Shown: piece after piece, positions 5,919-64,000 of the stretch
Layout: the number at the start of each line of letters is the position of its first letter
Numbering within the stretch: the stretch's first letter is position 1
Assembly: GCF_036013935.1 (NCBI RefSeq)
Contig: NZ_CP107902.1
Span: 3,629,001-3,693,000, forward strand
Source of the DNA: Streptomyces sp. NBC_00461
GTDB taxonomy: Bacteria; Actinomycetota; Actinomycetes; Streptomycetales; Streptomycetaceae
Reading direction: 5' to 3'
Length of the DNA: 64,000 nt
Made by a program: the position numbers and the translations under genes
The notes under the pieces: model-generated
Seen by the model: only the letters and a program-made list of their open reading frames with translations
The model's database searches: none
What the model was told of the DNA's origin: nothing

Positions 5919-7550
5919 ATGCAAGAGGCACCGGAGCTGACGAGCGCGGCAGATCCCGCGTCGGAGGCCTGGCAAGCCAATGAGGCGGCGCACCGGGCGC
6001 TCGTCGAGGAGCTGCGCGGCAAGCTGGCCGCGGCCCGGCTCGGCGGCGGCGAGAAGGCGCGGGCCAGGCACACCGCGCGCGGCAAGCTGCTGCCGCGCGA
6101 CCGGGTGGACACGCTGCTCGACCCGGGCTCGCCGTTCCTGGAGCTGGCACCCCTCGCGGCCGACGGCATGTACGACGGGGCGGCCCCGGCGGCCGGTGTG
6201 ATCGCCGGGATCGGGCGGGTGAGCGGCCGCGAGTGCGTGATCGTCGCCAACGACGCCACGGTCAAGGGCGGCACGTACTACCCGATGACGGTGAAGAAGC
6301 ACCTGCGCGCCCAGGAGGTGGCCCTGGAGAACCGCCTCCCGTGCATCTACCTGGTCGACTCCGGGGGCGCCTTCCTGCCCATGCAGGACGAGGTCTTCCC
6401 GGACCGGGAGCACTTCGGGCGGATCTTCTACAACCAGGCGCGGATGTCCGGGGCCGGCATCCCGCAGATCGCCGCCGTCCTCGGCTCGTGCACGGCCGGC
6501 GGTGCGTATGTCCCGGCCATGAGCGACGAGGCCGTCATCGTCCGCAACCAGGGCACCATCTTCCTGGGCGGTCCTCCCCTGGTGAAGGCCGCCACCGGTG
6601 AGGTGGTGACCGCCGAGGAGCTGGGCGGCGGCGAGGTCCACTCCCGGGTCTCCGGCGTGACGGACCACCTCGCCGAGGACGACGCGCACGCACTGCGGAT
6701 CGTCCGGAACATCGCCGCGACACTCCCCGCGCGCGGGGCGCTGCCCTGGGAGGTGCGGCCCGGCGTCGAGCCGAAGGTGGATCCCTACGGTCTGTACGGC
6801 GCGGTCCCCGTCGACCCCCGCACCCCCTACGACGTACGCGAGGTCATCGCGCGCGTGGTCGACGGCTCCCGTTTCGCCGAGTTCAAGGCCGAGTTCGGGC
6901 AGACGCTGGTCACCGGGTTCGCCCGGATCCACGGCCACCCGGTCGGCATCGTCGCCAACAACGGCATCCTGTTCTCCGAGTCCGCCCAGAAGGGCGCCCA
7001 CTTCATCGAGCTGTGCGACCAGCGCGGCATCCCGCTGGTGTTCCTGCAGAACATCTCCGGGTTCATGGTCGGCAAGGACTACGAGGCGGGCGGCATCGCC
7101 AAGCACGGCGCCAAGATGGTCACGGCGGTGGCCTGCACCCGCGTGCCGAAGCTGACGGTCGTGGTCGGCGGTTCGTACGGCGCGGGCAACTACTCGATGT
7201 GCGGCCGGGCCTACTCCCCCCGCTTCCTGTGGATGTGGCCGGGCGCCAAGATCTCCGTCATGGGCGGCGAGCAGGCCGCCTCCGTCCTCGCGACCGTCAA
7301 GCGGGACCAGCTGGAGGCGCGCGGCGAATCCTGGCCCGCGGACGAGGAAGAGGCCTTCAAGGCGCCGATCCGGCAGCAGTACGAGCGCCAGGGCAGCGCC
7401 TATTACGCCACCGCCCGCCTCTGGGACGACGGCGTGATCGACCCGCTGGAGACCCGCCAGGTGCTGGGTCTCGCGCTGACCGCCTGCGCCAACGCGCCAC
7501 TTTCCCAAAGGGACTACACAGCGCCCCAGTTCGGCGTCTTCCGGATGTGA
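5919..7550 (+). CDS. Acyl-CoA carboxylase carboxyltransferase (beta) subunit, probably 3-methylcrotonyl-CoA carboxylase
   Basis: A 543-aa biotin-dependent carboxyltransferase that moves CO2 from carboxybiotin to an acyl-CoA. The N-terminal half has '[20 protein letters not shown]' and '[16 protein letters not shown]' (acyl-CoA side, oxyanion hole). The C-terminal half has '[20 protein letters not shown]' and '[15 protein letters not shown]' (biotin side). Length and motifs fit methylcrotonyl-CoA carboxylase beta (LiuB/AccD1 type) better than propionyl- or acetyl-CoA enzymes. The next genes encode the matching alpha subunit (10-bp gap), HMG-CoA lyase and AcdH, which together describe leucine degradation. 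The start ATG 5919 follows GGACCGCAGG. Confidence 0.92.
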
Positions 7551-7560
7551 GGAGGGACCC

Positions 7561-9591
7561 ATGTTCGACACAGTGCTCGTGGCCAACCGGGGCGAGATCG
7601 CCGTCCGCGTGATCCGTACGCTCCGTTCGCTGGGCGTGCGCTCGGTGGCCGTCTTCTCCGACGCCGACGCGGACTCACGGCACGTCCGGGAGGCCGACAC
7701 GGCGGTACGGATCGGTCCGGCGCCGGCCGCCGAGAGCTATCTGTCGGTGGAGCGGCTGCTGGAGGCCGCCGCCCGCACCGGCGCACAGGCCGTACACCCC
7801 GGATACGGCTTCCTCGCGGAGAACGCGGCCTTCGCGCGCGCGTGCACCGACGCCGGGCTGGTGTTCATCGGCCCGACGGCGGAGTCCATCGCGTTGATGG
7901 GCGACAAGATCCGGGCCAAGGAGACGGTGCAGGCGGCCGGGGTGCCGGTCGTTCCCGGATCGAGCGGCAGCGGCCTGTCCGACACCCACCTCGCCGACGC
8001 CGCCCGCGAGATCGGCATGCCGGTGCTGCTGAAACCGTCGGCCGGCGGGGGCGGCAAGGGCATGCGGCTGGTGCGGGACGCCGCCGTGCTGGGCGACGAG
8101 ATCGCCGCCGCCCGCCGCGAGGCTCGCGCCTCCTTCGGCGACGACACACTTCTGGTCGAGCGGTGGGTGGACCGGCCGCGGCACATCGAGATCCAGGTGC
8201 TGGCCGACGGCCACGGGAACGTGGTGCATCTGGGCGAGCGCGAGTGCTCACTGCAGCGGCGCCACCAGAAGCTCATCGAGGAGGCGCCGTCCGTCCTGCT
8301 GGACGAGGCCACGCGCGCGGCCATGGGCGAGGCCGCCGTCCAGGCGGCCCGCTCCTGCGCCTACCGGGGCGCGGGCACGGTGGAGTTCATCGTCCCCGGC
8401 GGCGACCCTTCGTCGTACTACTTCATGGAGATGAACACCCGGCTCCAGGTGGAGCACCCGGTGACCGAGCTGATCACGGGCCTGGACCTGGTGGAGTGGC
8501 AGCTGCGGGTGGCGGCGGGCGAGCGACTGCCGTACGGGCAGGGCGACATCCGGTTCACCGGGCACGCGATCGAGGCCCGGGTGTGTGCCGAGACCGTCTC
8601 CGTCAAGGAGGGGGCACGCGGGTTCCTGCCGTCCGGCGGCACGGTGCTACGGCTGCACGAGCCCCGGGGCGACGGCATCCGCACCGACTCCGGACTCAGC
8701 GAGGGCACCGAGGTCGGCTCGCTGTACGACCCGATGCTGTCCAAGGTGATCGCCTACGGACCCGACCGGGAGACCGCGCTCAGGAAGCTGCGCAAGGCCC
8801 TCGCCGAGACGGTGACGCTGGGTGTGCAGACCAATGCCGGGTTCCTTCGTCGGCTGCTGGCCCATCCGGCCGTGGTGGCGGGCGAGTTGGACACGGGGCT
8901 GGTCGAGCGGGAAGTGGACGCACTCGTGGTGGAGGACGTGCCCGAGGAGGTCTACGCGGCGGCGGCGCTGACACGCCGGGCCGCGCTCACGCCCGCCGAC
9001 GGACCGGGCTGGACCGACCCGTTCGCCGCTGCGGACGGCTGGCGCCTTGGCGGCGAGTGGGCATGGACGCCGTACCACCTGCGGGTCCCCGGCCACGAGC
9101 CGGTCGTCGTGCGCGTGCGCAGCACGCCGGCCGGCACGACGGAGCTGCTGCTGCCCGGGGCGGACAAGCCTCTTCGGGGGTCCGGGGGCGTGCCCCCTCG
9201 GCCTGGCGCCGAGCACCGGTTCGCCTTCCGGCTCGACGGCGTCTGCCACACCTTCGCCGCCCTGCCGGACGGCACCTGGCTGGGCCGCGACGGCGACGCC
9301 TGGCAGGTGCGCGACCACGACCCGGTCGCCGCGTCCCTCACGGGCGCGGGGCATGCGGGCGCCGACTCGCTCACCGCGCCCATGCCCGGGACGGTCACCG
9401 TCGTGAAGGTCGCCGTCGGGGACGAGGTGAGCGCCGGTCAGAGCCTGCTGGTCGTGGAGGCGATGAAGATGGAGCACGTCATCTCCGCCCCGCACGCCGG
9501 CACGGTCGCCGAACTGGACGTCACGCCGGGCACCACGGTCGCCATGGATCAGGTGCTGGCCGTCATCACCCCGGCCCAGGAGGAGAAATGA
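7561..9591 (+). CDS. Biotin carboxylase / biotin carboxyl carrier (alpha) subunit of acyl-CoA carboxylase
   Basis: A 676-aa fusion. Residues ~1-445 are biotin carboxylase, with N-terminal 'LVANRGEIAVRVIRTLRSLG', ATP-grasp loop 'GGGGKGMRLV' and 'EMNTRLQVEHPVTE'. A less conserved BT-like linker follows. The biotinyl domain ends the protein, with 'EAMKMEH' carrying biotin Lys636. It starts 10 bp after the carboxyltransferase gene, with GAGGAGGG as ribosome site, and its TGA overlaps the ATG of the HMG-CoA lyase gene (ATGA). In the linker (9168-9205) a GC-rich palindromic stretch of a type common between Streptomyces genes is read in frame as a Gly/Pro-rich loop. Confidence 0.93.
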   Translation: MFDTVLVANRGEIAVRVIRTLRSLGVRSVAVFSDADADSRHVREADTAVRIGPAPAAESYLSVERLLEAAARTGAQAVHPGYGFLAENAAFARACTDAGLVFIGPTAESIALMGDKIRAKETVQAAGVPVVPGSSGSGLSDTHLADAAREIGMPVLLKPSAGGGGKGMRLVRDAAVLGDEIAAARREARASFGDDTLLVERWVDRPRHIEIQVLADGHGNVVHLGERECSLQRRHQKLIEEAPSVLLDEATRAAMGEAAVQAARSCAYRGAGTVEFIVPGGDPSSYYFMEMNTRLQVEHPVTELITGLDLVEWQLRVAAGERLPYGQGDIRFTGHAIEARVCAETVSVKEGARGFLPSGGTVLRLHEPRGDGIRTDSGLSEGTEVGSLYDPMLSKVIAYGPDRETALRKLRKALAETVTLGVQTNAGFLRRLLAHPAVVAGELDTGLVEREVDALVVEDVPEEVYAAAALTRRAALTPADGPGWTDPFAAADGWRLGGEWAWTPYHLRVPGHEPVVVRVRSTPAGTTELLLPGADKPLRGSGGVPPRPGAEHRFAFRLDGVCHTFAALPDGTWLGRDGDAWQVRDHDPVAASLTGAGHAGADSLTAPMPGTVTVVKVAVGDEVSAGQSLLVVEAMKMEHVISAPHAGTVAELDVTPGTTVAMDQVLAVITPAQEEK

Positions 9592-53100: not shown

Positions 53101-53694
53101 ATGAGCAGCGAACGCATCGATCCGTTCTCCGACCGCTTCGACGTCTCGGGAGTCACCGCGGACGGAGCCGCCTGGCTCGCCTCGGCAGGAACGTATCCGC
53201 GAAGCACGCTCACCCTCTGGAGGGAGCGCCCGGACGCTCCGGTCGTGCTCCCCTGCGGCACCGCCTTCGACGTCGTCAGCACACCCGCGGTCTTCGGCCG
53301 CCGGATGGTCGACCGGCTGTGGGACGAGGGACCCGGTTCGGGGCCGGTGGCGACCTTCCGGGGACGCATGCTGCTGTTCGCCGCGCCCGGCGCGGCCCAG
53401 CGGCTGCCCTCCCTGCTGCGCTGGGAGGAGGTCGGCCGTACGGCGGCGATCCCGCCCCTGCTGTGCCACGGCAACGGCGACGCGGTGACCGTCCCGGCCC
53501 TTCTCTCCACCGACCGGCCGACCTCGTGCGACTCCCGCTGGCTCGTCGCCCCCGACACCCGTCACCCCTGGCTGCCGGGCGCCGAAATCCTCCTCTGGGC
53601 AGCCGTCCGGGCGGCCCGCGCCGCCGTGCGGATATCGATTTTTCCCCCGGCCGATCAGGATGCTAAGGTCTACGACGTCAGCAGGCGCCGCTAG
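53101..53694 (+). CDS. Prim-pol-like / bifunctional primase-polymerase N-terminal-type protein
   Basis: A 197-aa protein with 'AWLASAGTYPRSTLTLWRER', 'VVLPCGTAFDVVSTPAVFGR' and 'SRWLVAPDTRHPWLPGAEIL'. These segments resemble the short actinobacterial proteins related to the N-terminal domain of bifunctional DNA primase/polymerases. The catalytic acidic triad is not clear (only 'FDVVS' has an Asp in place), so activity is doubtful. ATG 53101 is chosen without a visible ribosome site; GTG/ATG options lie 30 bp upstream. The TAG stop (53692-53694) lies inside the first 10 nt of tRNA-Lys. Confidence 0.65.
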   Translation: MSSERIDPFSDRFDVSGVTADGAAWLASAGTYPRSTLTLWRERPDAPVVLPCGTAFDVVSTPAVFGRRMVDRLWDEGPGSGPVATFRGRMLLFAAPGAAQRLPSLLRWEEVGRTAAIPPLLCHGNGDAVTVPALLSTDRPTSCDSRWLVAPDTRHPWLPGAEILLWAAVRAARAAVRISIFPPADQDAKVYDVSRRR

Positions 53695-53758
53695 CTCAGT
53701 TGGTTAGAGCAGCTGACTCTTAATCAGCGGGTCCGGGGTTCGAGTCCCTGGCGGCGCA
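53685..53758 (+). tRNA. tRNA-Lys (anticodon CTT), integration target
   Basis: Acceptor GCGCCGC (53685-53691) pairs fully with GCGGCGC (53751-53757), discriminator A at 53758. Anticodon stem GCTGA/TCAGC encloses loop CTCTTAA with CTT at 53719-53721. T arm GGTTCGAGTCC. CCA is not encoded. The integrase gene reads into the 3' half on the opposite strand, so this tRNA is the att site of the element to the right. Confidence 0.97.
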
Positions 53759-55443
53759 CAGTCTGTGACCTGGGCATCCTTCTCTTCGGAAGGGTGCCCT
53801 TGGTCGTTTTCAAGGTCGGATGCTAGCGAGGGGCTAACGCCACCGTCGTCCGGCCGCGTGGTGGGCGGTTGGGGGACGAGCGCGGCCGCAGCTTCAGCTG
53901 CCTGGCGGGCGATCTCCGGCAGCACCGAGGCGTACGTGTCAGCCGTGATCTGGATCGTTGAGTGCCTGAGCATGGCGGAGACCACTTTCATTTCTGCTCC
54001 GGCAGCGAGCGCCAAGGTGGCGGCCAGGTGCCGTAGGTCGTGCAGACGGATTGGTGGCAGGTAGCCGGGGTGCGGGTACGGCCGGAGCGGGCGCTCGGGG
54101 AAGAGCTGGTACCAGACGTGGGGGTCGACGATGCCGTTGGCCTTGAGCCCGCGTACACGTTGGAAGCCGGTCACAGCCCGCCGCGTCAGCGGCCCGAAGC
54201 ACCCATCGATCGTCAGGCCGAGCGTCGCTTGGACATCCTCAACGGCGAGACCGGTGTCTCCCGTGCGCAGGGTGTTGGCCCGCTTGATCGTCCGGACGAA
54301 GTGGCGGCTGACGTAGTCGGGATGCAGCGGTTTGCCGGTCTCGGTGGTGAAGACGTAGTGGCTGTCGGTCCAGCCCGAACCCAGTAGCTTCCGCTCCTCC
54401 AGCTGGCGTTGGCGATGTGCTCGCAGAACCGTGACGGTCATGGAGTCCAGCGCGATGATGCCGTCGCTGTCGTCCTTGGGCCGGGTGACGGCCGTTTTCC
54501 AGCCCACCTGCACGATCTGCTGGACGATGGCCAGCGTGCCGGTGTCCAAGTTCACGTCCGGCCAGCGCAGTCCGATGCCTTCGCCTCGGCGCGGTCCTCG
54601 GAAGACCAAAAGGTGGTAGTAGGCGTAGAGCCGGTCGGCCGTAATGAGGCCGAGGAAGGCGCCGGTCTGCTCAGGTGTCCAGACAGCCACCTTCGGGCGT
54701 CGGCCAAAGGCCATCCAGTCGATGACTCGCGGCGCGGTCCAGACGACCGCCTTCGGTCGGGGTGCGCTCTCCACTTCGACCGCCAGTGCTGGGTTGTCGA
54801 TGATCTGGCGCTGCCGGACGGCGGCGTTGAGCGCCGCCCGGAGCGTGGCATGGATGCGTTGGAGGGTCGCCGGGCCGATCGGACGCGAGCTCGTGGCAGC
54901 GCTGGCCACGATGGCGTCATAGGCGGTCCGGATCTGCGCCGGCCGTAGCTTCTCCAGGGGGATGTCACCGATCTGGGGCTTGAGGTAGTTCTGGATGAAA
55001 CCCACATAGGAGCGGCGGGTGTTGTCCGCCAGCTTGCGCTTGCTACCCATCCACTCGTCCAGCCACTCGCCGGTGGTCTGCTGCACGGTGAGTGAGACGC
55101 CGGCGCTGAAACGGCGGCGTACGTCGGCGTGCTCCGGCAACTGCTGATAGCGGCGGTAGTGGTCACGGATGAGGTCGACGATCTCCAGCCGACCCGCGTC
55201 ATCGTCTGTGCCGGGTATCTCCAGGAGCTGGATGGCCCGCCGCAGCTCCGTGACCGCCATGGTCTGACTGGCGAAACCACCCCGGGTAATCTGCTGCCGC
55301 CCGTGCTCCCGTCGGCCCGCGTCGGACAGCGGTACGTCGACGACATATGACCAGGTGCCGTGCTTCTTCGAGCAGGCCAGGCGCCTACCGGCCGCGTTGT
55401 AGCGGGCCGGACACTTGCAGCGCTTATAGGTGGTGCCCTGCAT
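53704..55443 (-). CDS. int: Tyrosine integrase with inserted peptidoglycan-binding-like domain
   Basis: A 579-aa recombinase. A Cys-containing N-terminal region (C9, C11, C24) is followed by a SAM-like core-binding domain (~118-215, 'LADNTRRSYVGFIQNYLKPQ'). The catalytic domain has Arg285 ('RGPRRGEGIGLRW'), Lys323 ('RPKDDSDGIIALD'), His468-x-x-Arg471 ('RLHDLRHLAATLAL'), His494 and nucleophile Tyr504 ('ITADTYASVLPE'). Between Lys323 and His468, residues ~397-448 read as a PG_binding_1 domain ('VEDVQATLGLTIDGCFGP', 'TRRAVTGFQRVRGLKANGIV'), an unusual insertion. The last 17 codons are antisense to tRNA-Lys. It lies downstream of the XRE gene with a 10-bp gap. Confidence 0.93.
   Translation of the reverse strand: MQGTTYKRCKCPARYNAAGRRLACSKKHGTWSYVVDVPLSDAGRREHGRQQITRGGFASQTMAVTELRRAIQLLEIPGTDDDAGRLEIVDLIRDHYRRYQQLPEHADVRRRFSAGVSLTVQQTTGEWLDEWMGSKRKLADNTRRSYVGFIQNYLKPQIGDIPLEKLRPAQIRTAYDAIVASAATSSRPIGPATLQRIHATLRAALNAAVRQRQIIDNPALAVEVESAPRPKAVVWTAPRVIDWMAFGRRPKVAVWTPEQTGAFLGLITADRLYAYYHLLVFRGPRRGEGIGLRWPDVNLDTGTLAIVQQIVQVGWKTAVTRPKDDSDGIIALDSMTVTVLRAHRQRQLEERKLLGSGWTDSHYVFTTETGKPLHPDYVSRHFVRTIKRANTLRTGDTGLAVEDVQATLGLTIDGCFGPLTRRAVTGFQRVRGLKANGIVDPHVWYQLFPERPLRPYPHPGYLPPIRLHDLRHLAATLALAAGAEMKVVSAMLRHSTIQITADTYASVLPEIARQAAEAAAALVPQPPTTRPDDGGVSPSLASDLENDQGHPSEEKDAQVTDCAPPGTRTPDPLIKSQLL
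53715..53758. other. Presumed attL (3' part of tRNA-Lys)
   Basis: tRNA-targeting integrases normally use the anticodon-to-3'-end segment as attB. The int gene ends within it. No second copy of this segment was found to 64000, so attR is either beyond the window or lost. The exact core cannot be set from one copy. Confidence 0.5.
53772..53799 (+). terminator. Terminator after tRNA-Lys, inside the int coding sequence
   Basis: GGGCATCCTTC / GAAGGGTGCCC: 12-bp stem with two wobble pairs, CTTC loop and a T-rich tail (TTGGTCGTTTT). It begins 13 bp after the tRNA. On the other strand it encodes the C-terminal tail of the integrase. Confidence 0.8.
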
Positions 55444-55453
55444 GATGCATGCC

Positions 55454-56161
55454 TTACCTTGCCGTCTGCGCGTCGCCAGGATGGGCCGCGCGCAGGTCGT
55501 GTTCCAGTTCGGTCAGCAGCTCCCGGGTGATGTGGCCGCGCAAGGTGGCCAGTTGGCCCTGGGATGCCTTGGGCCGACGTTCCTGGAGACGCAGATCTCG
55601 CTCCTGCGACAAGGTCCGGTCCCACCGTTGCAGCGCCACCAGGTTGACCCACTCCGGCGACGTTCCGACCTTGCGGGCTACGTGCCGCTCGGCCTCACCG
55701 ACGCTGGCGACCGCCCGCTCCACCAAACCGGGGTCTGCCCGCCCAGATCGCTGCACCTCCGCCAGGAAGTCGGACGTCCGATTGGCCAGCGCCAACGACT
55801 CGGTGATCTCGACCGCCCGCTCGGGCAGCGCCTGCACGGCGGCCGTGTTGCCGGACAGCAACGCCTTGACCGCGCCAACGGTCAGCCGCGCCCCGGGCGA
55901 CAGCTCGACAAGGTCATCCGATGCTCCGGCCACGAAGTCGGCCGGCGATACCTCGAAGGCGAGCGCCAGCAGGAGCACTTCCTCCAGCGCTATGCGCCGA
56001 GCCCCGACCTCTGCCTGCGCGACGGTTCCGCGGATCCAGGTCGTCAGACCGTGCTGCTGAAGCAGTGCGGCAGCCTCTTCCTGCTTCAGGCCACGGGCTT
56101 TCCTGATCTCTCTCAGGCCAGCTCCGAGCACCTGTCGCAGCGTTTGTGGCGTCCGTTCCAT
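55454..56161 (-). CDS. XRE-family repressor of the integrative element
   Basis: A 235-aa protein with an N-terminal helix-turn-helix (~8-65: 'LGAGLREIRKARGLKQEEAA', 'TVAQAEVGARRIALEEVLLL') and a helical C-terminal domain. It is likely the element's control repressor: it is divergent from the excisionase-like gene, and the shared 137-bp region contains two related TGCTC-n8-GAGC sites. It precedes int by 10 bp on the same strand, so its promoter probably drives int as well. Start ATG 56161 (MERTPQ) has GAGG at 6 bp. Confidence 0.85.
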   Translation of the reverse strand: MERTPQTLRQVLGAGLREIRKARGLKQEEAAALLQQHGLTTWIRGTVAQAEVGARRIALEEVLLLALAFEVSPADFVAGASDDLVELSPGARLTVGAVKALLSGNTAAVQALPERAVEITESLALANRTSDFLAEVQRSGRADPGLVERAVASVGEAERHVARKVGTSPEWVNLVALQRWDRTLSQERDLRLQERRPKASQGQLATLRGHITRELLTELEHDLRAAHPGDAQTAR

Positions 56162-56206
56162 GAGGTCACCTCGGGGAGGAAAGTGTCTCAACGGTACGTC
56201 GTGATC

Positions 56207-56273: not shown

Positions 56274-56298
56274 CGCCACCGCAGGTGAGGTGAGCCGC

Positions 56299-56508
56299 AT
56301 GGTCGGCATGAGCCGGGCCGAGTTGCTGGAGCTACCGGTCACCATCGACCTCGTAACCGCCGCCCGAGCCCTGGGCATCGGGCGCACGCGAGCCTTTGAA
56401 CTGGTTCGCCAAGGCGAGTTTCCGGTACCGGCAGTACGCGTCGGGACAACGTGGCGGGTGCCTACCGCTCCCCTCCTGCGCCTCTTGGGCCTATCTGGCG
56501 ATCAGTAG
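56299..56508 (+). CDS. Excisionase-like small HTH protein
   Basis: A 69-aa (72 if GTG 56290) winged-helix/MerR-like DNA-binding protein: 'TIDLVTAARALGIGRTRAFE' with 'LVRQGEFPVPAVRVGTTWRV' is the HTH_17/Xis pattern. Small basic proteins of this kind bend DNA to direct integrase toward excision. GAGG 8 bp before ATG 56299 supports that start. A perfect hairpin follows the stop by one base. Confidence 0.8.
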   Translation: MVGMSRAELLELPVTIDLVTAARALGIGRTRAFELVRQGEFPVPAVRVGTTWRVPTAPLLRLLGLSGDQ

Positions 56509-59391: not shown

Positions 59392-61146
59392 ATGAACCTC
59401 CGGCTCGAAGTCCACCTCACCGATGCTGTAGGCCAAACCCCCGAAGGGGGCGGATCATGGCGAGCCATTGTCAAGGATGGCAATACGCTGCGCCACGACA
59501 CGGGTGTGTTGCCTTATCAAGGCAACACATGGACGGCCGATTTGCCGATTTCAGCGACCTGGACTCATGCTTCCCTGCAACTGGACCCCGACCGCTACGC
59601 TGCCCAAGGCGTACAGGTAAACCCTTCCGCCGGGGGCGTATACCGCAACAACTCGGCCGCGCGGATCGTACTCGATGGCGGTAATACTCGGCTACGGCTT
59701 GATCTCCCCTTGCTCAGAATCCGCGAGGCTCCAGGCGTTCAGATCCCTTCGACCCCGAAGCCCGGAGACGACCCCAAGGCAGCCTGGCTGACCACCAGTA
59801 AGAGTCAGACCAGGGCTATCAGTCTCCGGTACCGCGAGGTGAACGTAAACGACTGGCCCAACGCCCGCAAGACGCGGATGGTGACACCCGGCCCCGCACC
59901 CTCCGCCGTACTGGATGACCCCGACCACCCCGACTGGGGCCGCCTCCATCACCAGGACAGGAGTTCAGATCCGTCGACTGCGGGTGCGCCACTGGTGCTC
60001 GAATACGGCGAAGTAGGCAGAACGAGCGCCACCGAGCCGAGATTTCTCGTCGGAATCTGGGCACCTGCGCCAGCCGGCTCCAGCGCCGTTCCCGCCTGGC
60101 GGGACATGGTCGCGTTCTATCACCCGAGCACTGCGAAGACATGGTTCCCCGCGGACACCTACCCCTTCAGGAATCATTATCCCTATCCCGTCAGCAGCAA
60201 CACACAGGTCGATCCGAGCCATCCTGATCGCCTGTTTCAGCCCTACGTCAATCTCGCCCTGAAGTACATGTTCGGCCACTGGAGCCACTTCGTGGACAAA
60301 GATCGGCAGCTCGTCCTGGTGACGCCGATCCTGCCTCACCCCCTCCCGGGACCCAACCCGGCGAAGCCCTCCCGAGACGAGAACGAGTACGGCCTGCCGT
60401 TCCGCGCCCAGTCCGGTCTGGCCCGGCTGCTAACGGAAGTAAACCTTTTCCTTCATCAGCGGAGGTATGGCTGGTCCGGTACGAACCTGGATGATTGGTG
60501 GGGGGCCAGAGCACCGATGGGGCAACCACGCTCGCCTGCGGAGGTCCCCACCTTCTTCCTGGACGAACGTGCGGCCCCTCAGGTACGGCGCGTGGCGGTC
60601 GCTGCTTTCAGTTCGTCTTCGCAGCTGCTGGAAGCTGCCCTGACAACGAAGGATTTGCCTTCCGCTGCCCGCTACACGGGACGCAACTGGGGAGTTCCAG
60701 ATGTGCGGAAGGCGCTCCTTGAGCCGTGGATGGAGACATGGTGCCTTGATCCATTGCTCGGGAAGACCACGGTTCAGGCTCCCGTTTTCGAGAAAAATTT
60801 GATGAAGTGGTGGAGTGAGTCGGAGAGCCGACGCTTCCTTCTGGCGAATTCCGGCACGACAGGAGGAAGTAATCCTGGCGCCCTCTATCCCGCGATTCGA
60901 ACCGCATCCAGTGCCTTGCGCAAACGCTCCAAGTCCGATCCGAACCGGAATGCCGAGGCTTGGTGGGGGCCGAATCAACGCTGGATCGGGATGTTCTGCT
61001 CCAATCCCTATCTTTCGGCTGTCGCAGACGTCCTGGTCCCGTGGCCGCCTTTCACCGCGCACCCATCATCCGATGACGCGCACGCGTTTATGCATGTGCT
61101 GGCTGTCGGGCTGGCCCTTGGCTGGTCGACACTGGGGCGGCCGTAG
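59392..61146 (+). CDS. 584-aa protein of unknown function (element cargo)
   Basis: A soluble protein without signal peptide or membrane segment. Residues 1-115 look like a beta-sandwich ('LRLEVHLTDAVGQTPEGGGS', 'GGNTRLRLDLPLLRI'). The rest is mixed, with Trp-rich segments such as 'RNHYPYPVSSNTQVDPSHPD', 'LALKYMFGHWSHFVDKDRQL' and 'SDDAHAFMHVLAVGLALGWS' near the end. No catalytic motif recognised. It starts at ATG 59392 without an obvious ribosome site and converges with the 916-aa gene, only 14 bp between stops. Third-position GC is lower than in the left part of the window, in line with transfer. Confidence 0.75.
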   Translation: MNLRLEVHLTDAVGQTPEGGGSWRAIVKDGNTLRHDTGVLPYQGNTWTADLPISATWTHASLQLDPDRYAAQGVQVNPSAGGVYRNNSAARIVLDGGNTRLRLDLPLLRIREAPGVQIPSTPKPGDDPKAAWLTTSKSQTRAISLRYREVNVNDWPNARKTRMVTPGPAPSAVLDDPDHPDWGRLHHQDRSSDPSTAGAPLVLEYGEVGRTSATEPRFLVGIWAPAPAGSSAVPAWRDMVAFYHPSTAKTWFPADTYPFRNHYPYPVSSNTQVDPSHPDRLFQPYVNLALKYMFGHWSHFVDKDRQLVLVTPILPHPLPGPNPAKPSRDENEYGLPFRAQSGLARLLTEVNLFLHQRRYGWSGTNLDDWWGARAPMGQPRSPAEVPTFFLDERAAPQVRRVAVAAFSSSSQLLEAALTTKDLPSAARYTGRNWGVPDVRKALLEPWMETWCLDPLLGKTTVQAPVFEKNLMKWWSESESRRFLLANSGTTGGSNPGALYPAIRTASSALRKRSKSDPNRNAEAWWGPNQRWIGMFCSNPYLSAVADVLVPWPPFTAHPSSDDAHAFMHVLAVGLALGWSTLGRP

Positions 61147-61160
61147 TCGAACACCATGTC

Positions 61161-63911
61161 TCACAACTGCTGGCCGGTCTTGGCGTCGTAGCGCACGGCC
61201 GTCGCGACTACCTGGTCGGTCGGCAGGACCTCGACCCACTGATCGAAGACCTGGTAGGGCTTGGCCGGCTGGAATCCTCCCGCCAAAGGATCGAACCCAT
61301 TCTCGAACACCTTCTCCGACGCCTGCGTGGTCGTGGGGTCGGCATTGGTTGTGCTCAGCTCCTTGGCCAGCAAGGTCAGGACCTCACCGACCTTCTTGCC
61401 CTGGTACGTGGAGGGATCGCCGTCGCTCGGGACGTAGCCGACGTCGAGGCCGGCTTCGCCCTCTACTTGAGTCAGCCAGTTCAACGCGGCCTGCTCCTGA
61501 CCCGGCCGGACTGGCAGGACGGCCTTCACCCACGCGGCGTTGAGGAATTCGTTGCGCCGTTCGTCCGAGTCGATCTGGATCAGCCACCCCAGGGAACTGC
61601 CCAGCGGAGCGGGCTGGGTCTGATCGGTGATGAGGTAGTCCACCCGCCATTCGTCCGGCGACGTCGCCTGCCCGTCGTTCGCCTTGTACTTCTCCGCCCG
61701 TGAATACCATCCGGCGACTGTCTGGCCCTGCAAGGGCAGGGGGGCGTCTCCGGTCGGCGAGGTCTCGTCCTCGGGAGGCAGCGGATACCGGCCCGTGCTG
61801 CTGGTGGTGGTCGGAGGTGCGGGTAGCAGACCGGGGCGCCAGTAGTCGGGGGCGACGAAGTACAGCATCTCCTCCACGTCGAAAAGGTGCTGAATTCCCT
61901 CTGCCTCCGGAAACGGTTGGAAACTCGGGTCCTTGGGGTACTGCTTAGCCTGCTCTAGCCGGCGAATGAGGTTCCTGAACACCACACGGCGCTCCTCACT
62001 GCGCAGATCTTCCGGGGTGCGGCTGCGCATGGTGCTGACCAGTTGCAGCCGCTCGCGCACGGCCTTCCCGTACGCGTCGTGCTGCAGACGCGCGACCTGC
62101 TTCTGGTAGGCGTCCTGCGCATCCTGATTGGCTTTCTCGATCGCCTGCGTGGTTTCTGCCTTCGGCGAGTACACGATAGTGGCGCTGAAGGGAAGAGACT
62201 TGTTCCCCTGGAAGTTGGCATACGTCAACCGCAGCCCGAGGGACTTCTTGTCCCGATCTGGGTTGTCAGTCATCCCCAGGTCATGAGGATTGACGGTGTA
62301 TTGCACTTGGGCGCCGTGGAAATCGACTTCCGGAGGCACACCCTTCTTGATTTCGTATCCATCGGGCGGCTCTGGCAGGGAAAAGTCGAACCGGAACTGG
62401 ATGAGATCGTTCGCACCCACATCCGGCTTGAAGATGCCGACATTGGGGTCGGTGTCCGGTGTGTAGGTGTCCTGCGCATCGTGATCGGCGCCGTGGGTCA
62501 GAACGAAGGGCAGCGACAACTGGTGTGTAAGCTTCTGGTCCTGCGGAAGCGGCTTCATCTCCGGCTTCTGGACCGCTGTCAGATCGGGCGCCTCGGCCAC
62601 ATGGACCATGTCACCTAGTCCGAGCTCCCGGCCCGGATCGCCGATGAACACCTGCCAGCAGAGCCGGGTTCCGACGTGCTGAAGTTGCACGCCGACCTTG
62701 CGCATCTTGCGTCGCAGCTCGTAATTGACCAGATCGCTGCCGGTGGGGTTCGTCAGAACATAGCGGCGGCTGGAGGTATCCGTCGTCTCGGTCACCGTCT
62801 TGAAGCTGGTCTTGAAGTTACGCGTGATCTCGCTCGTGGCTTTCGCAGACTGGGTACGCGTGTGCTTGTGTGTTTCCTCGGACCCACGTTTGACGGTGTT
62901 CTCCGTGCCGAAGCTGGCACTCACATCGGCATGGTAGATTTTCGCGTTCACCCCGCCGGTGGCACTGACTCCAAGTTTCGTGTCAGTCGAGTTTTCTTCC
63001 TTCACCGCGTCGGCGACGTCGTCCTGATCGGTCAGACTCTCCTCGGACTTCTGAGAGGCCGACTCCGACACCTCGCTCACTTTCTCGACCAGCGTGCGCC
63101 TGGTGCTGGTCTCGACCACTTCCACGGTGCCTCCCGGGCTGACCCAGATGTGGCCGACGGGAGAACCAAGGAAAGTGTCGAACTCGAAGAAATACTCCCG
63201 GAACAGGTTCACCAGCCCCACTGGGGACAGACCGCCGATAGCGCCCGCGTCGTAGTACCCGGCCAGCGCTGCAAGTGGTTGATCGACCATCGTGCGGGCG
63301 TTCGCGCCCTTGAACTGGCCGAGGGTAGTGAGCCCGGCGAACGCCGACTCGGGATGCGCCGTGGCGGCGGCCATGGAGGAAGAAGCGCCAAACCATCCCG
63401 TCAGCGGATGATAGATCCCGAACAGTTCACTGGCGTAGGGCGGTGCACCGGTGAAGTCGGCCAGCGGTCGCCCGGCATAGGCAGGTGCTCCCCGCCCCGG
63501 CATGGTGATCTTCTGTGCATGGCTGGTGGGACCGTTCGTCGTGACAGCGAAGGGTACCGACACGAGGGGATTGCCAGGTGTGGTCTTCATCAGAAGGATC
63601 TCTCCAGTGGCCGCTCGGACCGGAGCGACAAAGGAGATCGTCTGTGGACCGGCCGTGGCAGTCAGACGGCCCACATACTGGCGAGGATCAGCCGGGTCCT
63701 TCTGGAGGAATGTGCCCTGCAGGGCCGTCACCCCGGGCAAGGTTGCGGGATCCAGTACGTTGATATCACTGGACAGGGCGAGAGCGAGGCGCTGTCCCTG
63801 CGGGATCTCCTGATTACTGCCATCGATCTTGTAGGTCCAGAGGTTGTACGCGACTCCGACCGCACCGCCGAGTACGGGCGACGTGCCGACGAGTGTGAGC
63901 ACCAGCGTCAT
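61161..63911 (-). CDS. 916-aa protein with Ser/Thr-rich amphipathic region, function unknown (element cargo)
   Basis: A large protein without signal peptide. Residues 1-125 look beta-rich. At ~255-277 'WVSPGGTVEVVETSTRRTLV' leads into a polar Ser/Thr/Glu region (268-380) with alternating residues ('GVSATGGVNAKIYHADVSAS') and then 'LVNYELRRKMRKVGVQLQHV'. A coiled-coil-like helix lies at 588-660, 'FDVEEMLYFVAPDYW' at 677-691, and 'AVLPVRPGQEQAALNWL' near 800. I recall similar blocks in large uncharacterised bacterial proteins but cannot name a family. Start ATG 63911 (MTLVLTLVG) has AAGGG upstream; ATG 63959 is an alternative. Possible structural, adhesive or pore-forming role is speculative. 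Confidence 0.75.
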   Translation of the reverse strand: MTLVLTLVGTSPVLGGAVGVAYNLWTYKIDGSNQEIPQGQRLALALSSDINVLDPATLPGVTALQGTFLQKDPADPRQYVGRLTATAGPQTISFVAPVRAATGEILLMKTTPGNPLVSVPFAVTTNGPTSHAQKITMPGRGAPAYAGRPLADFTGAPPYASELFGIYHPLTGWFGASSSMAAATAHPESAFAGLTTLGQFKGANARTMVDQPLAALAGYYDAGAIGGLSPVGLVNLFREYFFEFDTFLGSPVGHIWVSPGGTVEVVETSTRRTLVEKVSEVSESASQKSEESLTDQDDVADAVKEENSTDTKLGVSATGGVNAKIYHADVSASFGTENTVKRGSEETHKHTRTQSAKATSEITRNFKTSFKTVTETTDTSSRRYVLTNPTGSDLVNYELRRKMRKVGVQLQHVGTRLCWQVFIGDPGRELGLGDMVHVAEAPDLTAVQKPEMKPLPQDQKLTHQLSLPFVLTHGADHDAQDTYTPDTDPNVGIFKPDVGANDLIQFRFDFSLPEPPDGYEIKKGVPPEVDFHGAQVQYTVNPHDLGMTDNPDRDKKSLGLRLTYANFQGNKSLPFSATIVYSPKAETTQAIEKANQDAQDAYQKQVARLQHDAYGKAVRERLQLVSTMRSRTPEDLRSEERRVVFRNLIRRLEQAKQYPKDPSFQPFPEAEGIQHLFDVEEMLYFVAPDYWRPGLLPAPPTTTSSTGRYPLPPEDETSPTGDAPLPLQGQTVAGWYSRAEKYKANDGQATSPDEWRVDYLITDQTQPAPLGSSLGWLIQIDSDERRNEFLNAAWVKAVLPVRPGQEQAALNWLTQVEGEAGLDVGYVPSDGDPSTYQGKKVGEVLTLLAKELSTTNADPTTTQASEKVFENGFDPLAGGFQPAKPYQVFDQWVEVLPTDQVVATAVRYDAKTGQQL

Positions 63912-64000
63912 GGGAGGGCCCTTCGGTTCGTCATCTCCCTTTCTGTGCTCCCATGACATGCAGCAGTCATCACCGTGCCAGGCCCGAAATCACTCGACTG

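Follow-up and report, generated by a model that had tools for sequence, protein, structure and literature searches.

Why would a DNA recombinase carry a cell-wall domain inside its catalytic domain? In a 64,000-nucleotide stretch of the genome of Streptomyces sp. NBC_00461 (contig NZ_CP107902.1, positions 3,629,001 to 3,693,000; hereafter, the window), a tyrosine integrase holds, next to its active-site motif, an entire independent domain of a type known otherwise from enzymes of the cell wall.

An integrase with a complete catalytic set

The integrase is encoded on the minus strand (53704..55443) and has 579 amino acids. It scores 43.9 bits against Phage_integrase (PF00589; cut-off 27.1) over the whole protein, in two pieces split by the insert, of which the best stretch covers residues 464-507. 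Phage_int_SAM_3 (PF14659) is over its cut-off at residues 125-176. The predicted model has four strands, and its top structure match is the integrase of Tn1549, Int. From PF14659 and VIA matches to solved core-binding domains, we place the core-binding domain at residues 121-230, approximately (54754..55083, minus strand). The catalytic domain before the insert (residues 252-389; 54277..54690, minus strand) is delimited by invariant columns and the structure match and contains R285 and K323. The catalytic domain after the insert (residues 462-526; 53866..54060, minus strand) contains the best PF00589 stretch and H468, R471, H494, and Y504. The full catalytic set is thus present, as the initial annotation had reported. 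A recombinase core of this family should cut and join att DNA as usual.

We found no strongly hydrophobic segment in the integrase (the highest 19-residue mean is 1.42, at residue 473). Since the N-terminal half is DNA-binding as well, the integrase is a predicted cytoplasmic protein.

Arm-DNA-bind_4 scores 11.6 bits on this integrase, below its cut-off of 22.3, and it matches 8 of 42 relatives at E ≤ 1e-2 (0.01). Within residues 1-28 (55360-55443), C9, C11, C24, and H28 occur in every row that has a residue there in our larger alignment (117 rows, with four fragments left out), including the insert-less relatives. Their occupancies are 103/117, 103/117, 106/117, and 106/117, and the remainder are gaps. 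These four residues could possibly form a zinc site in the arm-binding region.

A peptidoglycan-binding-type domain within the catalytic domain

PG_binding_1 (PF01471) matches residues 411-447 with 35.2 bits (E = 1.4e-8; the gathering score is 23), between the catalytic Lys323 and H468xxR471. The initial annotation had read a peptidoglycan-binding domain (PGBD) at 54100-54255, which it equated with residues 397-448. The presence and position of the domain are borne out by the profile score, the alignments, the tree, and the structure prediction, but the borders were drawn too narrowly: the gap in insert-less relatives spans residues 390-461, so the whole insert is about 72 residues long (54061..54276, minus strand). 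It comprises a domain with the PGBD fold (residues 392-447; 54103..54270, minus strand), as delimited by PF01471, matches to sequences in the PDB, the helices of the model, and fold matches, and a linker (residues 450-461, ERPLRPYPHPGY; 54061..54096, minus strand) that rejoins the HxxR segment. Across 25 aligned inserts, the linker is nearly invariant (PLRxYPHPGY), and five of its positions are strictly so: P452, R454, Y456, P459, and G460.

The alignments separate two kinds of protein. In the larger alignment, 89 of the 117 rows have one residue between positions 389 and 462, and 26 rows, including the window's integrase, have 72-74. The remaining two, P0025 (whose frame is broken there) and P0024 (which is truncated), have 30 and 54 residues. 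Insert-less proteins pass straight into LPPIRLHDLRH, while the carriers read AN-[PGBD]-PLRPYPHPGY-LPPIRLHDLRH.

Is the similarity to PGBDs real? In a smaller alignment of 42 proteins (the window's integrase, 10 insert-less relatives, and the homologs P0001-P0031, two of which, P0027 and P0029, stop short of the insert), PF01471 has a match at E ≤ 0.01 in 29 proteins. Among the sequences in the PDB, the peptidoglycan-binding proteins 5tv7 and 5nm7 are matched by residues 384-447 and 390-449 (E = 1.2e-4 and 2.8e-4, respectively), and a profile built from the 25 inserts alone finds peptidoglycan-binding proteins in the PDB with a best E value of 1.3e-8. Given these matches and a score above the curated cut-off, the similarity is not due to chance.

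AlphaFold2 predicts helices at residues 399-407, 418-430, and 441-447, in a block with a pLDDT of 98 over residues 391-450, and the insert folded alone matches solved PGBDs. The initial annotation had named a sub-threshold PF01471 score together with an ordinary recombinase loop or helix as the result that would count against it. Instead, the score is well above threshold and the predicted fold is the three-helix fold of PGBDs. In the model, a loop joins the helix at 375-389 of the catalytic domain to the helix bearing H468xxR471, and the insert lies in this loop; about 20 residues separate the end of the PGBD domain from the active-site HxxR. By counting helices, we infer that the domain sits between the helices that correspond by position to I and J of Tn1549 Int.

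The insert is confined to one group of integrases

We found 683 homologs of the integrase at E ≤ 1e-20, of which the best 120 were listed. By BLASTP, P0001-P0031 share 56-90% identity with the query, and a precomputed match to PF01471 exists for 23 of the 31. From P0032 onward, identity falls to 36-49%, and none of the matches listed (120 of 683) has PF01471. Protein searches with the insert region alone returned 11 and 21 proteins, all of them within the insert group of the first search.

In a tree built without the insert columns, a single branch separates the 28 carriers from all other rows (SH-aLRT of 100; this tree is from a quick method with no bootstrap). Because one change explains the trait, the distribution fits a single gain of the insert, which was then kept. 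R285 and K323 do not vary across 27 carrier rows; H468 and R471 are kept in 26 rows and fall in a gap in one; Y504 is kept in 25 and falls in a gap in two; and position 494 is His in 23, Tyr in two, and a gap in two. The two proteins with Tyr in place of the catalytic His494 are P0016 and P0017, near-identical members of the clade from metagenomes.

Surveying actinobacterial integrases for the same insertion, we found it at the same place on genome contigs from at least four named organisms: Streptomyces xylophagus (locus L006), Streptomyces sp. ISL-43 (L007), Kitasatospora paracochleata (L008), and Streptosporangiaceae bacterium NEAU-GS5 (L009). It also occurs in integrase proteins from metagenomes. 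Members with the insert thus include integrases from Streptomyces and from a Streptosporangiaceae bacterium, with broken copies in Kitasatospora. An assembly error or a chance similarity is therefore extremely improbable, since independent assemblies agree on the insert and its position and since PF01471 is over its cut-off; we rejected this explanation.

We also searched sets of genomes, whose draws at the genus, family, class, and phylum levels overlap. At E ≤ 1e-8, the insert profile matches 102 of 396 genomes from the phylum and 65 of 394 from the family, and these matches are mostly to other PGBD proteins. Judging by score and matched range (a few of the others were inspected), the only matches that resemble insert-bearing integrases are in the window's own genome, in G752 (the Kitasatospora of L008), and in G794, whose integrase matches in several frames and hence is broken. 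At E ≤ 1e-15, 3 of 394 genomes from the class match: the window's own and two with proteins that end in a PGBD and, by eye, appear secreted. The full-length integrase matches 2 of 295 genomes from the genus at E ≤ 1e-60 (with four candidates scored per genome). No second, independent PGBD insertion was seen in the insert-profile searches of the phylum, family, and class genomes, which is weak evidence that there is none. We also considered and rejected a phage or plasmid origin: the viral contigs that we scanned contained no confirmed relative, and of 48 plasmid records with a match, none cover 80% of the query.

The inserted domain is under constraint

We computed dN/dS with the Nei-Gojobori method for four pairs of genes: window-L006 (the closest pair), window-L007, window-L009 (for which synonymous sites are near saturation), and L006-L007. 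In that order, dN/dS of the PGBD is 0.13 (from 8 nonsynonymous and 17 synonymous changes), 0.44, 0.18, and 0.27. The catalytic part has values of 0.11, 0.34, 0.23, and 0.36 on the N-terminal side of the insert and of 0.07, 0.16, 0.09, and 0.17 on the C-terminal side. In the C-terminal tail, dN/dS is 1.2 (with only three synonymous changes), 0.84, 1.6, and 0.82. The PGBD is thus under selective constraint, although this is weaker than in the segment after it.

This bears on whether the PGBD is a tolerated passenger that arrived by accidental recombination with a cell-wall gene, folds by itself, does no harm, and has no job. PGBDs are small, fold independently, and are common in these genomes, and in the window-L007 pair the PGBD evolves faster than both flanks. 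But no insert-less row falls inside the group of 28 carriers (which are defined by having the PGBD), the closest pair has a far lower dN/dS in the PGBD than in the tail (with its three synonymous changes), and the linker is invariant. We consider a passenger fairly unlikely.

Residues that distinguish the insert from ordinary PGBDs

We set the 25 inserts against 77 PGBD domains at 35 loci. Because the insert profile was used to collect these loci, they are biased toward similar domains; some columns are also sparsely filled. The inserts agree with ordinary PGBDs at the core positions G395, G398, V401, Q405, L408, G414, A423, V424, Q428, G437, and W444. Elsewhere they differ. Among ordinary domains, 94% have D at position 413, where 76% of the inserts have S/T and 20% have D; position 436 is D in 93% of ordinary domains and N in 84% of inserts; and position 440 is G in 92% of ordinary domains and D in 88% of inserts. 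The window's protein retains D413 and has N436 and D440. D403, R421, and Y445 are found in 96, 88, and 88% of inserts and in at most about a quarter of the domains elsewhere. The newly fixed positions would fit a new contact; they do not pin it down. Integrases are not alone in having the T-G variant at 413-414, since the two best-scoring non-integrase proteins, which are from another family, are ordinary PGBD proteins (secreted, by eye) and also have TG there.

The insert might instead be a ligand gate that binds a muropeptide in the cytoplasm and couples the mobility of the element to stress or to turnover of the wall. The fold and the core residues are those of peptidoglycan-binding domains. 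On the other hand, the integrase is apparently cytoplasmic, and the Asp that 93-94% of ordinary domains keep has become S/T (413) or N (436) in most inserts, although the window's protein has kept D413. Binding of a cell-wall ligand by the insert is unlikely, and we think a ligand gate very improbable.

Or, the PGBD might touch DNA beside the core or arm site and widen site recognition. It appears to lie between the helices matching I and J, two DNA-interacting helices of Tn1549 Int according to the accessible part of PMC5871717, and the same source describes a beta-hairpin insertion in Tn1549 Int that shapes DNA. But the PGBD part is near neutral: its mean charge is -0.3 in the 25 inserts (range -7.5 to 5.5) versus 0.2 in the 77 ordinary domains. 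Also, no DNA-binding role of the PGBD fold turned up in the literature and database results that we obtained. By analogy with Tn1549 Int, a DNA contact is conceivable, and we rate it as unlikely.

The host element and the neighbors of the integrase

The end of the integrase gene falls inside a tRNA-Lys (CTT) gene (53685..53759, plus strand; identified by ARAGORN). The 3' part of this tRNA gene forms the attL core (53712-53759). The 48-bp core has an exact second copy at 122322-122369 in equivalent window coordinates, where the 5' half of a tRNA is lacking. The repeats delimit an element of ~68.6 kb, which lies mostly outside the window, with the integrase beside one repeat. A Pfam scan of ten proteins from a crude ORF list of the element identified a relaxase (Replic_Relax, 100.8 bits; cut-off 25.3) and a coupling ATPase (TrwB_AAD_bind, 30.9 bits; cut-off 20.5). 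From these genes, this is probably a conjugative actinobacterial element that targets tRNA-Lys. Two of its open reading frames, at 59392-61146 (584 amino acids) and 61161-63959 (932 amino acids), have no match in Pfam at E ≤ 0.01 and no PADLOC model. PADLOC also had no match for the integrase and one weak match, to a control protein, for the XRE-type protein described below.

The tRNA-Lys sequence itself supplies the final codons of the integrase (53704-53759), so the att core encodes the end of its C-terminal tail. L006 and L007 share this ending. The tRNA-Lys core is present at all four loci. At L008 (7073-12251), two 41-bp copies of it, ~5.1 kb apart, enclose the broken insert-bearing integrase. 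The window's own genome (G000, contig 1) has two more complete tRNA-Lys (CTT) genes containing this core, near 3765564 and 3771568, downstream of the right end of the element.

Adjoining the integrase gene is an XRE-type regulator of 245 amino acids (55454..56191, minus strand; HTH_3, 28.4 bits, cut-off 23). A 72-residue HTH_17-like protein (56290..56508, plus strand) scores 22.5 bits against HTH_17, below the cut-off of 27; it also matches phrog_32619 (unknown function; 47.7 bits) and, weakly, the excisionase family phrog_66 (16.6 bits). Its position and these weak matches make it a candidate excisionase. The three genes are found together at L006, L007, and L009, and at L008 neither neighbor was found within the stretch around the broken integrase.

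The XRE protein is found in 3 of 295 genomes from the genus (with nine candidates scored per genome). In the window's own genome and in G208, it is beside an insert-bearing integrase; in G263, about the last 40 residues of the integrase are all that remain. Because so few genomes have it, the pairing rests on few cases, and its distribution neither proves nor excludes that the XRE protein is the integrase's partner. In G263 (locus L059, about 6386-7900), the XRE and HTH_17-like genes are beside only the last part of the integrase, and a DnaJ-like frame that by eye resembles the one at this element's right end follows directly. There, the two ends of the element seem to be joined, with most of the integrase gene missing.

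What might the inserted domain do?

A role in wall anchoring is hard to reconcile with this protein, whose N-terminal half matches DNA-binding domains of integrases and which has no strongly hydrophobic segment. There is also a precedent for another use of the fold: the C-terminal dimerization motif of CtpB resembles the PGBD of gp144 and the propeptide of pro-MMP-2 and has a distinct function, according to the accessible part of PMC3808539. The motif of CtpB is not an insertion in a recombinase. For these two reasons, we favor a module for protein contacts. The initial annotation had offered protein contacts, allostery, or a link to another ligand; all are reasonable, and we rank protein contacts first.

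Specifically, we give an even chance to the proposal that the PGBD fold has been re-used as a protein-contact surface in the recombination complex, for assembly or for the choice between integration and excision. The folded domain would present this surface, rather than a cell-wall anchor, on the outer, DNA-facing side of the catalytic domain, and the invariant linker would fix its orientation against the recombinase. It could dock on a second Int subunit, on the HTH_17-like candidate excisionase, or on the adjoining XRE protein, and assembly or the integration-versus-excision choice would depend on that contact. Several observations count against this proposal: the fast evolution of the PGBD in the window-L007 pair, the similarity of the insert's net charge and core residues to those of ordinary PGBDs, the TG variant shared with ordinary PGBD proteins, and the rarity of the XRE protein, including one genome with just the integrase's end. 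A related idea is a natural allosteric domain-insertion switch, in which the inserted PGBD binds a protein partner or a cell-wall-derived ligand and thereby switches recombination; we regard this as possible, on the doubtful side.

If the PGBD is a control or assembly module, then it shows an integrase gaining new regulation by domain insertion, offers a model from nature for recombinases that can be switched, and adds a DNA-acting protein to those with the PGBD fold. Since close relatives either clearly have or clearly lack the insert, the question can be tested directly.

Comparison with known systems

In the literature that we could cover, which is incomplete and lacks most subscription journals, we found no description of an integrase with an inserted PGBD. 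Databases flag PF01471 on these integrases automatically; as far as we found, the combination has not been discussed. A survey of recombinases (PMC8138268) has no word beginning with "peptidoglycan" in its main text. It does mention catalytic-domain insertions in integron-like, Arch2, IntTn916, IntBPP-1, and lambda-type recombinases. Our integrase thus resembles integron integrases and other recombinases in having a clade-specific insertion within the catalytic fold, and the insertion of integron integrases is essential for function (PMC8138268). But as given there, these insertions are beta-stranded or short or their fold is not stated, and none is called a complete separate domain. For IntTn916-type integrases (Tn1549 Int and the pSAM2 cluster of actinomycetes), the accessible parts of PMC8138268 and PMC5871717 do not describe a PGBD insertion; the insertion known from them is a beta-hairpin and lies between different strands.

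The PG_binding_1 domains of SleB, SleC, the Zn DD-peptidase (1lbu), and phage endolysins share the profile, the core residues, and the fold with the insert. Several positions that are fixed in the wall enzymes are changed in the insert. In those enzymes the PGBD is a terminal module of a protein that acts on the wall, whereas here it lies inside the catalytic domain of a DNA recombinase.
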